Below are positions 4,045 through 12,307 of a DNA stretch of 55,663 nucleotides, in pieces (the stretch's first letter is position 1; each line of letters begins with the position of its first letter). The notes beneath the pieces were generated by a model. It had not been told where the DNA came from, searched no databases, and was given only the letters and a program-made list of their open reading frames with translations. Origin of the DNA: Gemmatimonadota bacterium. GTDB taxonomy: Bacteria; Gemmatimonadota; Gemmatimonadetes; Longimicrobiales; Gaopeijiaceae. The DNA lies in NCBI GenBank assembly GCA_015664885.1, contig DQPL01000040.1:1-55663 (forward strand). The letters run 5' to 3'. Both the position numbers and the translations under genes were made by a program.

Positions 4045-6132
4045 TCACGCAGTCCCGCCGTAGCGGTCGCGCAGGGTGCTTATCCCCTCCGGCCGTCCGA
4101 TTACGGTGATCCGGTCGCCGTCGAGCAGCGCGGTGTCACCTCTCGGGATGACGAGCTCATCACTGCGGCGGATCATCGCGATCAACGTCCCATCGGGGAG
4201 CGACACCTCACGCAGCTGAAAACCGATGAGAGCGGAGCCTGGCTGATCTTTCCCGAGCACCATCACGAAGATGCGCTCGTTTCGGAACAACGCCTCTTTC
4301 AGCTGCTCGTCGCTCTCAGCCCCTAGCCATTCGGGCATGAAGCTGTCCTGATCCACGCGACGCGCGACTTGAGCCAGAATCCGGAGGTGCTGTCCCGGAT
4401 CCGCCTCGGGACTCACCAGAAAGAACACGGCTCGAATCGTCTCCGCCGGCGCGCGCTCAACCCTACCCGGCTCGCTCACGAAGCGCACTCCCTTTGTCAC
4501 TCTAGCCAGAAGGAGGTGGGAGCGGTCGAGCAACTCCGACCGCATATGCGGTAGTGCGACACCGTGCGAAACCGGGGTAGCCCCCGTGCGCGTGCCCAGG
4601 AGGAATGCCTCACACAGTTGGCTGGCGGTCACGGGCACGTCCAAAGCAAGCAGATCAGACGCCTGGTTCGCCAAGTCTTCAAAAGCGACGGGCCCCTCCA
4701 AGTCGAGCAGACGAGCATGCGTGAGCAGCCGATCGATCGGGTCGGCCTCGCGCGGCCCCCGTTCCTTCATGATCTCGCGAAGCTCCCGGTCCAGCCCCCC
4801 GTATCGCTGCCGTCCGAGTCGTTCGAAGACGTGGAAAATCGCGCCTTCTCGGTCGATCTTGTCGCGAGCGTAGTACGTGTACCACATCGCGCCGAAGACG
4901 ATCAGTCCACCTGTGAAGAGCGTTGGCAGGATCCCCATGGTCACGATCATCCAGAAGGGGCCGAGAATACCGAGGATCTGCACGGCAGGATACAAAGGAG
5001 AGCGGAAGCCAGGGTCGTACGACTCGATCCGACTCTCCCGCATTACGATCACCGCAAGGCAGGCGAGCGCGAACAATACCATCTGAAACGCGCTCGCGAG
5101 CTTCGCGATTCCCGTTGGGTCGAAGAGCGTGACCGAGAGCAGAATCATCGCCACGGTGACCGCTATGCCGACGGTTGGCGTTCCTCGCCCTCCGACGTGG
5201 CTGAACAGGACGGGCAAGAGCTTGTCTCTTCCCATCGCGAGCGGGTAGCGGGACGCGGCGAGGATCCCTGCATTTGCGACCGACGAGAACGCAAGTATCG
5301 CGGCCACCGTCATGATGGCCGCGCCCCACGGACCCACCAGAGCCTCGGCCACCGTGGCGACCGGCGTCAGAACTCCACCGCCCTGGCTCAGAGTCTCCAC
5401 TCCTACGACCCCGACCATCACCGAAGTGCCTACGATGTAGATCGTGATGATGCTGCCAAAAGCGAGAAACATGCCCAGAGGCAAGTTGCGCTCTGGGTTT
5501 TTCACTTCCTCCGCGACACTGGCGACCTTAGTCAATCCCATGTAGCTGACGATGACTAGCCCGGCGGTGCTGACTATCCCTGCGCCGCCCACCTCGAAAA
5601 AGCTGCTGAAGTTGCCCACCTCGACTTGAAGCACGCCAACGCCACAAAACCAGGTGAGCAGGATGAGGAGCCCAATCAGAAGCAGTAGCTGAAACGACCC
5701 ACTCTTTTTGGCTCCGAAGTAGTTGACCCCACCGAAGAAGATCGCGAACCCCGCCGCGATCGGACCCATTTGCAGGCCCGGGAGGAAGAGTTTCAGGTAC
5801 GCGCCGACTCCGATGAGTGCGAACGCACACTTCAGGATGATGGCAATCCAGGTTCCGAATCCGCCTATCGCTCCTACCAGCGGACCCATGCTCCGGTCCA
5901 GGAAATAGTAGATGCCACCAGCACGGGGCATCGCGGTCGCGAGCTCCACCATGCTGAAGAGCCCCGGAAGCAGGATCAGCCCCGCGAGCAGATACGAGAG
6001 AGGCATGGCCGGCCCAGCCCCGGCCGCTGCGAGCCCAGGCAGGAGAAAGAAGCCCGAGCTGAGCGTTGCGCCTGTGGCAATGGCGTAGACGTCCCACAGC
6101 CCCAGTTGCTTCTCGAGTCGCGCGGGCTTCAC
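4045..6132 (-). CDS. APC-family permease fused to EIIA-like and TrkA_C-like domains
   Basis: A 695-residue three-part protein. Roughly residues 5-430 are an amino-acid/polyamine/organocation permease with twelve or more helices, starting LEKQLGLWDVYAIATGATL. Residues 455-625 resemble a type-2 PTS EIIA domain, including GVALPHMR with the His that EIIA domains phosphorylate. Residues 632-695 resemble a TrkA_C/RCK ligand-binding domain (GTLIAMIRRSDELVIPRGDT, then DRITVIGR). The start is taken as the GTG at 6132, three bases after the stop of the receiver gene; the frame is open further upstream but overlaps that gene. The soluble domains probably gate transport by phosphorylation state or a nucleotide/second messenger, which is inference. 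Co-transcription with an agmatinase-family enzyme suggests an amino acid or guanidino/polyamine substrate. Confidence 0.75.
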   Translation of the reverse strand: MKPARLEKQLGLWDVYAIATGATLSSGFFLLPGLAAAGAGPAMPLSYLLAGLILLPGLFSMVELATAMPRAGGIYYFLDRSMGPLVGAIGGFGTWIAIILKCAFALIGVGAYLKLFLPGLQMGPIAAGFAIFFGGVNYFGAKKSGSFQLLLLIGLLILLTWFCGVGVLQVEVGNFSSFFEVGGAGIVSTAGLVIVSYMGLTKVASVAEEVKNPERNLPLGMFLAFGSIITIYIVGTSVMVGVVGVETLSQGGGVLTPVATVAEALVGPWGAAIMTVAAILAFSSVANAGILAASRYPLAMGRDKLLPVLFSHVGGRGTPTVGIAVTVAMILLSVTLFDPTGIAKLASAFQMVLFALACLAVIVMRESRIESYDPGFRSPLYPAVQILGILGPFWMIVTMGILPTLFTGGLIVFGAMWYTYYARDKIDREGAIFHVFERLGRQRYGGLDRELREIMKERGPREADPIDRLLTHARLLDLEGPVAFEDLANQASDLLALDVPVTASQLCEAFLLGTRTGATPVSHGVALPHMRSELLDRSHLLLARVTKGVRFVSEPGRVERAPAETIRAVFFLVSPEADPGQHLRILAQVARRVDQDSFMPEWLGAESDEQLKEALFRNERIFVMVLGKDQPGSALIGFQLREVSLPDGTLIAMIRRSDELVIPRGDTALLDGDRITVIGRPEGISTLRDRYGGTA

Positions 6133-6134
6133 CG

Positions 6135-6551
6135 CTATTCCGCTGCTTTCAGCGCGTAGCGAAGCACCTTTTCGAGATCGGCAATCTCGAAGGGCTTGCT
6201 CAGGAATCCGACGCCCGGCAGTGCCGAAGGAGAGATGCCCCAGCCATAGCCCGACATCAGGACGACCGGGAAGTCGGGATGAGCGGCCCACACACGATTG
6301 ATCAGATCCAGCCCGGAGAGTTCCGGCATCTTCTGATCGGTCAACAGAATGCGGCACTCCGTGGGATTCGCCAGAAGCTTCTCAAGCGCCTCCAATGGAT
6401 TCGTGTTCGCGGAGGACTGGAACCCCAAGCGCTTGAGGACGAGTGCAACATATACGCATATATGAGGATCGTCGCCGACGATCATCACCCGGCCTCCGCC
6501 CAGTTCGAGCGCAGCCGACTGATGCCGATCGCGTTGCCAGAAGTCAGTCAC
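6135..6551 (-). CDS. Stand-alone response-regulator receiver domain protein
   Basis: 138 residues comprising one CheY-like receiver domain and no output domain. The acidic pocket is partly changed (VMIVGDDPHICVYVALVLKR carries the first Asp pair), the phospho-acceptor Asp lies in LLTDQKMPELSG, the conserved Ser/Thr in VVLMSGYG and the Lys in FLSKPFEI. It overlaps the upstream agmatinase-like gene by four bases (ATGA) and is followed two bases later by the permease start, so all three are translationally coupled. No histidine kinase is encoded nearby. Being wedged between an enzyme and a transporter with a phosphorylatable domain suggests it adjusts their activity by protein contact, which is inference. 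Confidence 0.85.
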   Translation of the reverse strand: MTDFWQRDRHQSAALELGGGRVMIVGDDPHICVYVALVLKRLGFQSSANTNPLEALEKLLANPTECRILLTDQKMPELSGLDLINRVWAAHPDFPVVLMSGYGWGISPSALPGVGFLSKPFEIADLEKVLRYALKAAE

Positions 6552-10161: not shown

Positions 10162-11010
10162 CTACAACTGGGCGGCCAAATCGATGAAGTCTGTCGCCGA
10201 ATAATCGAACTCGGGATCGGGGGTAGTATCGATCGTTCGGCTCGGCCCGTACTCGAGCGGACGGGGCACCCACACAGCCTTGAAGCCGACGCGCTGAGCC
10301 GCCCGCAGGTCTCCCTTGTGCGCGGCGACCATCATGATTCGATGGGGAGGAAGACTCAGCAGATCCGCCGCCTTTTCGTACACTTCCGCGTCCGGCTTGT
10401 AGTGCCCGGATAGCTCGGCAGACAGCACACAGTCCCACGGCAGGCCGGCGTTCTTCGCCATGTTGGTCAACAGCGATACGTTGCCGTTGGAGAGCGTGGA
10501 CAGCACGAATTTCGACTTCAAACGGCCGAGGCCCAACACCGTATCGGGCCAAGGGATGAGGCGATGCCATACCCGGTTCAGATTGTCGATCTCAGCCTCG
10601 GAGAGTCCAGAGATGTCGAACTCGACCAGGAGGTCGTCGAGAATTCTGCGATGCAGGTCATCGATCTTCATCCACGGCAACTCGCCGGTGCGGACCTGGT
10701 TCATGGCGGGGCCATACCCGGAGCGCCACCCATCGGCAAACCTCTCCCAGTCCACTTCGAGTCCCTTCGCCTGAGACAGCATTCGCCCCTCACGAATGAT
10801 CGACGTGCGCCAATCGACAACGGTTCCGAAAACGTCGAAGGTCAATGCCACGACGTCCGACTCCTGCCGAGGCCGGACCGCCCCCGGTGCTTTTTCGTCA
10901 GGCAGCAGACTGCTCCCGCCCCCGAAAGCGGTCGCCGCTAAGGCCACCGCCCCGGCCGATAGGAATTCTCCGCGCTGCAAAGTGCTGAGGTCCGCAGTGT
11001 TCGAGCTCAT
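10162..11010 (-). CDS. Haloacid dehalogenase type II-like HAD hydrolase, probably exported
   Basis: 282 residues. After an N-terminal extension (residues 1-45, LQRGEFLSAGAVALAATAFG, a signal-like segment lacking a clear twin-Arg) comes a HAD core of the L-2-haloacid dehalogenase subfamily: nucleophile Asp in LTFDVFGTVVDWR, the Ser/Asn motif STLSNGN, and the Lys motif HYKPDAEVYEKAADLL. The cap region between the first two motifs has type II length. The Asp-rich fourth motif is changed (MMVAAHKGDL replaces the usual S-x-x-x-D), as in true type II dehalogenases. It precedes the candidate selenoprotein gene's 3' end by 15 bases on the same strand. Substrate and cellular location are inference. 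Confidence 0.8.
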   Translation of the reverse strand: MSSNTADLSTLQRGEFLSAGAVALAATAFGGGSSLLPDEKAPGAVRPRQESDVVALTFDVFGTVVDWRTSIIREGRMLSQAKGLEVDWERFADGWRSGYGPAMNQVRTGELPWMKIDDLHRRILDDLLVEFDISGLSEAEIDNLNRVWHRLIPWPDTVLGLGRLKSKFVLSTLSNGNVSLLTNMAKNAGLPWDCVLSAELSGHYKPDAEVYEKAADLLSLPPHRIMMVAAHKGDLRAAQRVGFKAVWVPRPLEYGPSRTIDTTPDPEFDYSATDFIDLAAQL

Positions 11011-11025
11011 TGATTTTCCCTCACT

Positions 11026-11670
11026 CTATGGGATTGCAGCCAGAATCTCGGACGGTTCGGCTCTCACCGTATAGTCCGGATCGGCGGATGCGAAAACGAT
11101 GGTCCCGTCAGGGTCGACGACGAACGTAGCTGGGATGGGGAGCTGCCACGACTCGTCGCCATTGAAGCGCACGAGATCCAGCTTGAAGAACTCGATGTAC
11201 AGTCGCCGGAGATCGTCCGGAACTTGAAACGTAAGCCCGTAATCACGCGCGACGCCTAGGCCCAAGTCCATGAGCACGTCGAACTCGATCCCGTCTTCCT
11301 CGGCCCAAGGTCGCGCGAAGTCCTGAAGCTGAGGCTGAAGGGTCACGAGCGTTGCGCCCTTCGCGGAGATCTCGGGTAGTGCGGCCTGGAGAGCAACCTG
11401 CTCAAGTCGACAATAGGGTCACCACCTGCCGCGGAAGAAGCTCAGGACCACCGGACCGCGTTTGAGCAACGTCCTGAGTCGAACGGTCGCACCATCGAGG
11501 TTCGGACGCGCAAAAAGCGGCGCGGTGTCGCCGACGGAGCACACTCCATCCAGGATCCCCGATGCCCGCAGCTCGTCCGTCGACCGGTTCATGAGCGCGG
11601 TAACCGCGGGGTCTCTGCCTTCTTCCTTCTCCCCGCGGAAGGCCGCCAGGCGCTCGTTCAATAATTCCAT
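11026..11670 (-). CDS. Peroxiredoxin-like protein, candidate selenoprotein (in-frame TGA at 11419-11421)
   Basis: One frame of 215 codons, interrupted only by TGA at 11419-11421, encodes an AhpC/TSA-type, Prx-like protein of normal family length. Residues 1-83 read MELLNERLAAFRGEKEEG to VVLSFFRGRW; then comes the TGA; then PYCRLEQVALQAALPEIS continues to the C-terminal PIPATFVVDPDGTIVFASAD. Relatives carry R-G-x-W-C-P-Y-C here, so the TGA exactly replaces the first, redox-active Cys, giving a U-x-x-C motif. Prx-like proteins with U-x-x-C are an established selenoprotein class. A matching hairpin follows the TGA. The alternative is a chance nonsense mutation of a TGC or TGT codon; the precise position, the intact downstream frame and the hairpin argue against it. 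It is flanked by the HAD gene (15-base gap) and the PH-domain gene (35-base gap). No selA, selB, selC or selD is in the window. Confidence 0.75.
11391..11403 (-). promoter_or_regulatory. Candidate bacterial SECIS hairpin
   Basis: On the minus strand, 5'-GAGCA GGT TGCTC-3' forms a perfect 5-base-pair stem with a 3-base loop starting GG, beginning 15 bases after the TGA; about 20 bases separate the TGA from the loop. Bacterial SECIS elements are small stem-loops immediately downstream of the UGA with a G at the start of the apical loop at about this distance. The loop context GC-AGGTT-GC resembles the E. coli fdhF element (GC-AGGTCT-GC). The lower stem here is short, with only a possible CT/AG pairing beyond an internal mismatch. 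Confidence 0.6.
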
Positions 11671-11705: not shown

Positions 11706-12245
11706 TTAACGCTCCGGCAAACGCTCTTCGATACGCAACAGCGCGTCGCGAATCTCGACCAGGACCTGCGCCTCGCTCGTCGACCCGGACGCGGCGGCCA
11801 CGGGGAGGGCTGGCTGAGACCCTGCTACCACAGCGTCCCTCTGCCGTAGAACGGTGTCCCGGAACTCTCGCGCGCCCTCGATACCCACTAGTTGGACAAG
11901 AGCGCCCGGCCCCGACTGGCCGGCGGTCTCGACCGAAATGGCCTGCAGATCCATGTAGCGCATGATGGGACCCTCGACGAGCCCCAGGTCCGTGATCTTG
12001 TCCAAGGGCACGGTCTTTTCCTGACGAACCAGGATACCGCGAGTCACCTTCAGCGACCGATCGGTCAGGGTGCAGCTCATGCGCTGAAGGTACCGCTCGG
12101 TGAAGTGGTGCCCGAACAGGAGCCACAACGGAAGGAAGGGAATCCCGATGACGGTGACCACGCAGAGAATCGATCCCGTAAGCAGCCAATAGCTGCGCAC
12201 TTTTCGGTTGAACGTGGCTTCTGCCAGGACGGTTTCGGGGGCCAT
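11706..12245 (-). CDS. Membrane protein with bacterial PH (YdbS-like, bPH2) domain
   Basis: 179 residues from the ATG at 12245, chosen because GGAG precedes it by a good spacing; the frame is open to 12281. Two adjacent hydrophobic segments near residues 17-47 (LLTGSILCVVTVIGIPFLPL) precede a bPH2 domain: YLQRMSCTLTDRSLKVTRGI, VRQEKTVPLDKITDLGLVEG and MDLQAISVETAG are the hallmark strands. A low-complexity linker leads to a C-terminal helix VEIRDALLRIEERLPER. bPH2 proteins are membrane-associated and of poorly defined function, often near stress or envelope genes. It lies upstream of the candidate selenoprotein on the same strand and is divergent from the exonuclease gene. Confidence 0.8.
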   Translation of the reverse strand: MAPETVLAEATFNRKVRSYWLLTGSILCVVTVIGIPFLPLWLLFGHHFTERYLQRMSCTLTDRSLKVTRGILVRQEKTVPLDKITDLGLVEGPIMRYMDLQAISVETAGQSGPGALVQLVGIEGAREFRDTVLRQRDAVVAGSQPALPVAAASGSTSEAQVLVEIRDALLRIEERLPER

Positions 12246-12307
12246 CGAATCTCCGGAGCTAGGTGGGGCGAACGACACCACTGTGGGTCTAGGTCTTATA
12301 CTGCAAC

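Follow-up and report, generated by a model that had tools for sequence, protein, structure and literature searches.

The Prx-like gene and its neighbours

The window, by which we mean the whole stretch of 55,663 nucleotides that was analysed, is contig C95 of a Gemmatimonadota genome of 3.96 Mb that is 99% complete. It carries on its minus strand a Prx-like gene (11026..11670) with an ATG at 11670, a TAG at 11028-11026 and a predicted product of 214 residues. The frame is broken once, by an in-frame TGA at codon 84 (11421-11419; feature 11419..11421, minus strand). Read with selenocysteine (Sec) at this codon, the surrounding peptide is ...VVLSFFRGRWUPYCRLEQ..., placing the putative U84 in a WUPYC motif. 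Three codons on, a TGT (11410..11412, minus strand) encodes Cys87. This residue is invariant in the alignments and would presumably resolve U84 within U-P-Y-C. An earlier sequence-only reading had proposed that one frame codes both halves of a Prx-like protein, broken by the TGA alone. Its coordinates proved exact, and the strand, which it did not give, is minus.

Conservation extends across the TGA. In a Pfam search of the read-through product, the AhpC-TSA domain (PF00578) spans the codon, matching residues 46-193 with an E-value of 1e-25 and 90.5 bits against a cut-off of 26, and the Redoxin domain (PF08534) also spans it (2e-16). No model scored above its cut-off in an NCBIfam search of the protein. 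A sister genome of the same genus has the same TGA in a Prx-like protein that is 86% identical. Between the two genes, dN/dS is approximately 0.11 before the TGA and 0.15 after it: both stretches are under purifying selection.

Downstream on the minus strand lies a haloacid dehalogenase (HAD) type II gene (10162..11010; TIGR01428, 163.5 bits, above the cut-off of 125.4), which starts 15 nt after the Prx-like stop and is a possible operon partner. Upstream, also on the minus strand, is a bacterial PH-domain protein (bPH_2; 11706..12281; PF03703, 1.4e-13). The sequence-only reading had named both neighbours correctly, but the setting it drew attention to carries no functional signal: among the loci examined, the HAD-Prx-PH order is kept only within the same genus, and no neighbour family recurs in more than five of 80 loci. 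Elsewhere in the window, a minus-strand gene (4045-6357) encodes an amino acid permease fused to PTS EIIA-type and TrkA_C domains.

Codon 84 and the stem-loop among homologues

Because a Cys query could miss TGA forms, the wide scan used an alignment with X at the codon-84 place, and loci were scanned by peptide patterns. Among the best 80 of 528 relatives from named genomes, 68 have TGA at codon 84, eight have TGT and four TGC, with no other codon present, a ratio that is valid for this nearest neighbourhood only. The sequence-only reading had placed the TGA at the first Cys of a W-C-P-Y-C motif and had suggested that homologues be checked for Cys or TGA there. Both points are borne out, the former by the 12 of the best 80 homologues with Cys at codon 84, and the latter by a strict alternation between 68 TGA and 12 TGC or TGT in the same best 80 of 528. 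Since the TGA is common to the sister genome and to 68 of these 80 homologues, with Cys in the other 12, a chance TGA is excluded. Within this set, the TGA forms belong to Gemmatimonadota, Rokuibacteriota, Acidobacteriota, Thermodesulfobacteriota, Myxococcota and others, and the Cys forms to Cyanobacteria, Acidimicrobiia and Pseudoalteromonas. When the Sec/Cys label is mapped on a tree of 81 rows, a minimum of three changes is needed, versus 11.4 with shuffled labels.

In a set of 98 genomes, comprising the window's own and relatives, 14 have a Prx-like match at E<=1e-15, and every match contains a single TGA. Thirteen of them, the window gene among them, have the TGA in W-U-P-Y-C, and the orthologues in this group share 41-86% identity with the window gene. 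The remaining match (L038:1501-2022, relative G039) also has WUPYC but is more distant and resembles a lipoprotein; it has a long C-terminal part in a lipoprotein-like frame, and its stem-loop differs in sequence. In a phylum sample of 395 genomes, the gene is present in 42, of which 41 have one TGA. The sole exception, G289, has a much lower score and probably belongs to another subfamily.

Following the TGA of the window gene is a SECIS-like stem-loop, GAGCAGGUUGCUC (11391..11403, minus strand), which spans nt 19-31 when the T of the TGA is taken as nt 1. It reads GAGC-AGGUU-GCUC, with a stem of 4-5 bp (nt 19-22 with 28-31) and a loop that has G-G-U at nt 24-26. The bacterial SECIS, according to the bSECISearch literature, is said to consist of a small stem with a G in the apical loop; the window gene has both after its UGA. 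The folding energy of its 42-nt stretch is no better than that of shuffled sequences (z +0.86). As single-sequence folding energy is not significant, the case for a SECIS rests on comparison across homologues.

In the 68 Sec forms among the best 80 of 528, each of the pairs 19-31, 20-30, 21-29 and 22-28 is intact in 94-100%, and 67 have a G at nt 24. At the stem codons, Glu is written GAG in all 68 Sec forms, as against 60% of Glu codons in the rest of these genes, and Ala is written GCT in 64 of 67, as against 9%. The combination of stem and loop G is observed in 63 of the 68, where 2.1 would be expected if synonymous codons are drawn at random, although shared ancestry of the homologues inflates these counts. 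Because the locus scan used peptide patterns, the stem-loop count is not a selection effect. The outer pairs are variable: nt 17-33 can be A-T or C-G, and mismatches are frequent. By comparison, stem and loop G are kept in one of the 12 Cys forms from the best 80 of 528.

The Cys forms, most of which lack the SECIS-like stem or the loop, include two from Acidimicrobiia (L108, L118) and eight from Cyanobacteria (L071, L073, L077, L083, L090, L098, L111, L117), which represent a natural control series for the stem-loop. When the window was scanned mechanically for a TGA with a stem-loop after it, 59 matches were returned, most of which are presumably due to chance. Of these, the Prx-like gene alone has so far been shown to have a conserved domain across the TGA.

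Sec machinery and the reading of the TGA

The genome encodes a complete set of the Sec genes that the sequence-only reading had listed for a search: selA (C10:5186-6532, 545 bits), selB (C8:51061-52920, 327 bits against a cut-off of 242), selD (C51:8526-9452, 381 bits) and tRNA-Sec (selC; C118:27056-27148), identified by ARAGORN as SeC, anticodon TCA (UCA). That reading was to be given up if all Sec genes were absent, and this objection fails. From established biology, SelA and SelD would charge tRNA-Sec, and SelB would bind the mRNA stem-loop and deliver Sec at the UGA. Across the 98 genomes, selA occurs in 14 of 14 carriers of the Sec form versus 61 overall (hypergeometric P 0.0007, uncorrected for kinship). 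With selA in 61 of 98 sampled relatives, Sec use is therefore common in the little-cultured Gemmatimonadota.

The selD gene (L022:1501-2427 = C51:8526-9452) has its own in-frame TGA in HGTGUACK, and SelD is itself probably Sec-containing. Approximately 3 kb from selD on contig C51 is a second Prx-like gene (L003:1332-1985, match at 5128-5592) with a WUPWC motif and an N-terminus like that of a lipoprotein. Its TGA is followed by a GCAGCUC/GAGCUGC stem-loop, and its product is likely a second selenoprotein of this genome. A second SelB-like N-terminal half (L006, C82:15394-16248, 178.6 bits, profile 1-258) runs to a contig end; it may belong to an additional selB or to a different elongation-factor paralogue.

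Five independent lines, namely the Sec genes, the TGA/Cys alternation, the conserved SECIS-like stem-loop, the co-occurrence with selA and the selection across the TGA, support the selenoprotein first proposed by the sequence-only reading. We hold with high confidence that the gene codes a selenoprotein of the known class of Prx-like thiol:disulfide oxidoreductases (AhpC/TSA fold, U-x-x-C), a class assignment made from the published description of the class, whose reference member is WP_010940744.1. Judged from sequence, Sec is almost certainly inserted at the apparent stop, in the active site of the protein.

Three other accounts of the TGA need to be weighed. The codon might be a sequencing error or a recent nonsense mutation in a pseudogene, the true or ancestral codon being TGC or TGT. 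The assembly is a draft of 136 contigs and TGA is one base away from a Cys codon, but the same TGA recurs in the sister genome as well as in 68 of the 80 best homologues, from many independent assemblies, by which this account is already refuted. Purifying selection and a SECIS-like synonymous constraint moreover continue after the TGA, leaving an error or mutation extremely improbable. Termination at the TGA, yielding an 83-residue N-terminal protein with the downstream part untranslated or a separate gene, is the conventional reading under table 11, and UGA also terminates where SelB does not act. Against it stand the Pfam domain that spans the TGA, the homologues with Cys at the codon, the C-terminal half conserved alongside in a single frame, and the presence of the Sec machinery. 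We consider a genuine stop very unlikely, although some premature termination is still likely as a side product.

An in-frame TGA within a conserved gene could also signal genome-wide recoding to Trp or Gly (codes 4 or 25), or read-through by a near-cognate tRNA. However, codon 84 in the best 80 of 528 homologues is otherwise Cys and never Trp or Gly, selA and selB of the same genome have no inner TGA, and a tRNA-Sec with anticodon UCA is present, so that there is next to no probability left for recoding.

Predicted redox chemistry and relation to known selenoproteins

An AlphaFold2 model, run with Cys in place of Sec, has a mean pLDDT of 96.3 and a pTM of 0.92. Two N-terminal helices precede a thioredoxin/AhpC fold, and U84 sits just before helix 85-103. 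Foldseek places the peroxiredoxins BcpB, AhpE and Bcp nearest among solved structures, with a TM by target of 0.83-0.87 and ResA/TlpA oxidoreductases close behind. The canonical peroxiredoxin signature PxxxT(S)xxC/U is absent from the protein: R80 takes the Pro place and U84 that of the Thr. R80, seven residues before C87, is invariant in 40 rows. Fold and motif suggest that the U84 selenolate would be the attacking residue, that C87 would resolve it as a U84-C87 selenenylsulfide, and that a thioredoxin-type reductant would then reduce this bond.

Whether such chemistry would serve thiol:disulfide exchange or the reduction of peroxides is a closer question. Because the peroxiredoxin PxxxTxxC signature is lost, we favour a thiol:disulfide role as the somewhat more probable function. 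A selenoprotein that is instead a true peroxidase is a serious contender, if short of an even chance. It would account for the AhpC/TSA domain and for AhpE, BcpB and Bcp peroxiredoxins being the nearest solved folds, and Sec would speed peroxide reduction. Set against this are the absence of PxxxTxxC, with an invariant R80 rather than Pro and U84 at the Thr place, and the ResA-type oxidoreductases, which match about equally well.

We also speculate, more tentatively, that these proteins form a distinct and widespread Prx-like subfamily, marked by an N-terminal extension of two helices and by the absence of the peroxiredoxin signature, found in Gemmatimonadota, Rokubacteria, Acidobacteria, Desulfobacterota and others. 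Sec might then be its ruling state, with Cys derived and accompanied by SECIS loss in Cyanobacteria and Acidimicrobiia, and the subfamily might have its own selenium-dependent substrate; this larger proposal is rather doubtful. The family does provide a clean natural Sec/Cys series, with SECIS gain and loss at one codon. In Gemmatimonadota genomes, standard-code gene finders would cut or miss the gene. It is useful for annotation and for the study of Sec/Cys evolution, although it holds no surprise for the specialist.

The phylum Gemmatimonadota is unmentioned in the main texts of three selenium papers (PMC13188914, PMC5029168, PMC9312934), and selenium is unmentioned in the main texts of two Gemmatimonadota genome papers (PMC11651109, PMC10469786), a small sample whose silence carries little weight. 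The gene is a solid new example of a known selenoprotein class rather than a new system, in a phylum for which the limited literature searched yielded no description.

Among the known systems, similarity to SelL or SelL-related proteins (NF040769) is weak, at 29.9 bits far below the cut-off of 120, and unlike SelL the window protein has a single Sec in UxxC (UPYC) rather than UxxU. The window protein has its fold and Pfam family in common with Sec-peroxiredoxins (TxxU), but its Sec lies three residues earlier, at the Thr place, and PxxxT is absent. With ResA/TlpA thiol-disulfide oxidoreductases it shares a redox pair at the CxxC place of the same fold; it differs in having no obvious N-terminal signal or membrane anchor and in the replacement of the first Cys by Sec. 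A peroxiredoxin-like family selenoprotein (AhpC/TSA family, cd02970, UxxS; PMC13188914) is likewise AhpC/TSA-like with Sec first in its motif, whereas the motif here is UxxC and not the UxxS of the published description.

The closest correspondence is with the Prx-like UxxC class. The Sargasso Sea study described a 'Prx-like protein' with a Trx-like UXXC instead of TXXU in 22 Sec sequences (PMC1088965), the GOS study counted 225 Sec sequences of Prx-like 1 (PF00578, UxxC; PMC2398784), and reviews from 2022 and 2026 give 'Prx-like thiol:disulfide oxidoreductase, PF00578, UxxC/UxxU' as predicted (PMC9312934, PMC13188914). These four sources confirm that, as the sequence-only reading had stated, Sec in U-x-x-C Prx-like proteins is an established class. 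Like its members, the window protein combines an AhpC/TSA domain, Sec first in a Trx-like UxxC that replaces the TxxU of Prx, Cys homologues and a bacterial SECIS after the UGA; unlike them, it has a Gemmatimonadota host and a two-helix N-terminal stretch of approximately 45 residues ahead of the domain. Every testable feature of the class is found in the window gene: PF00578 across the UGA, UxxC with Sec/Cys exchange, a SECIS and the Sec machinery.
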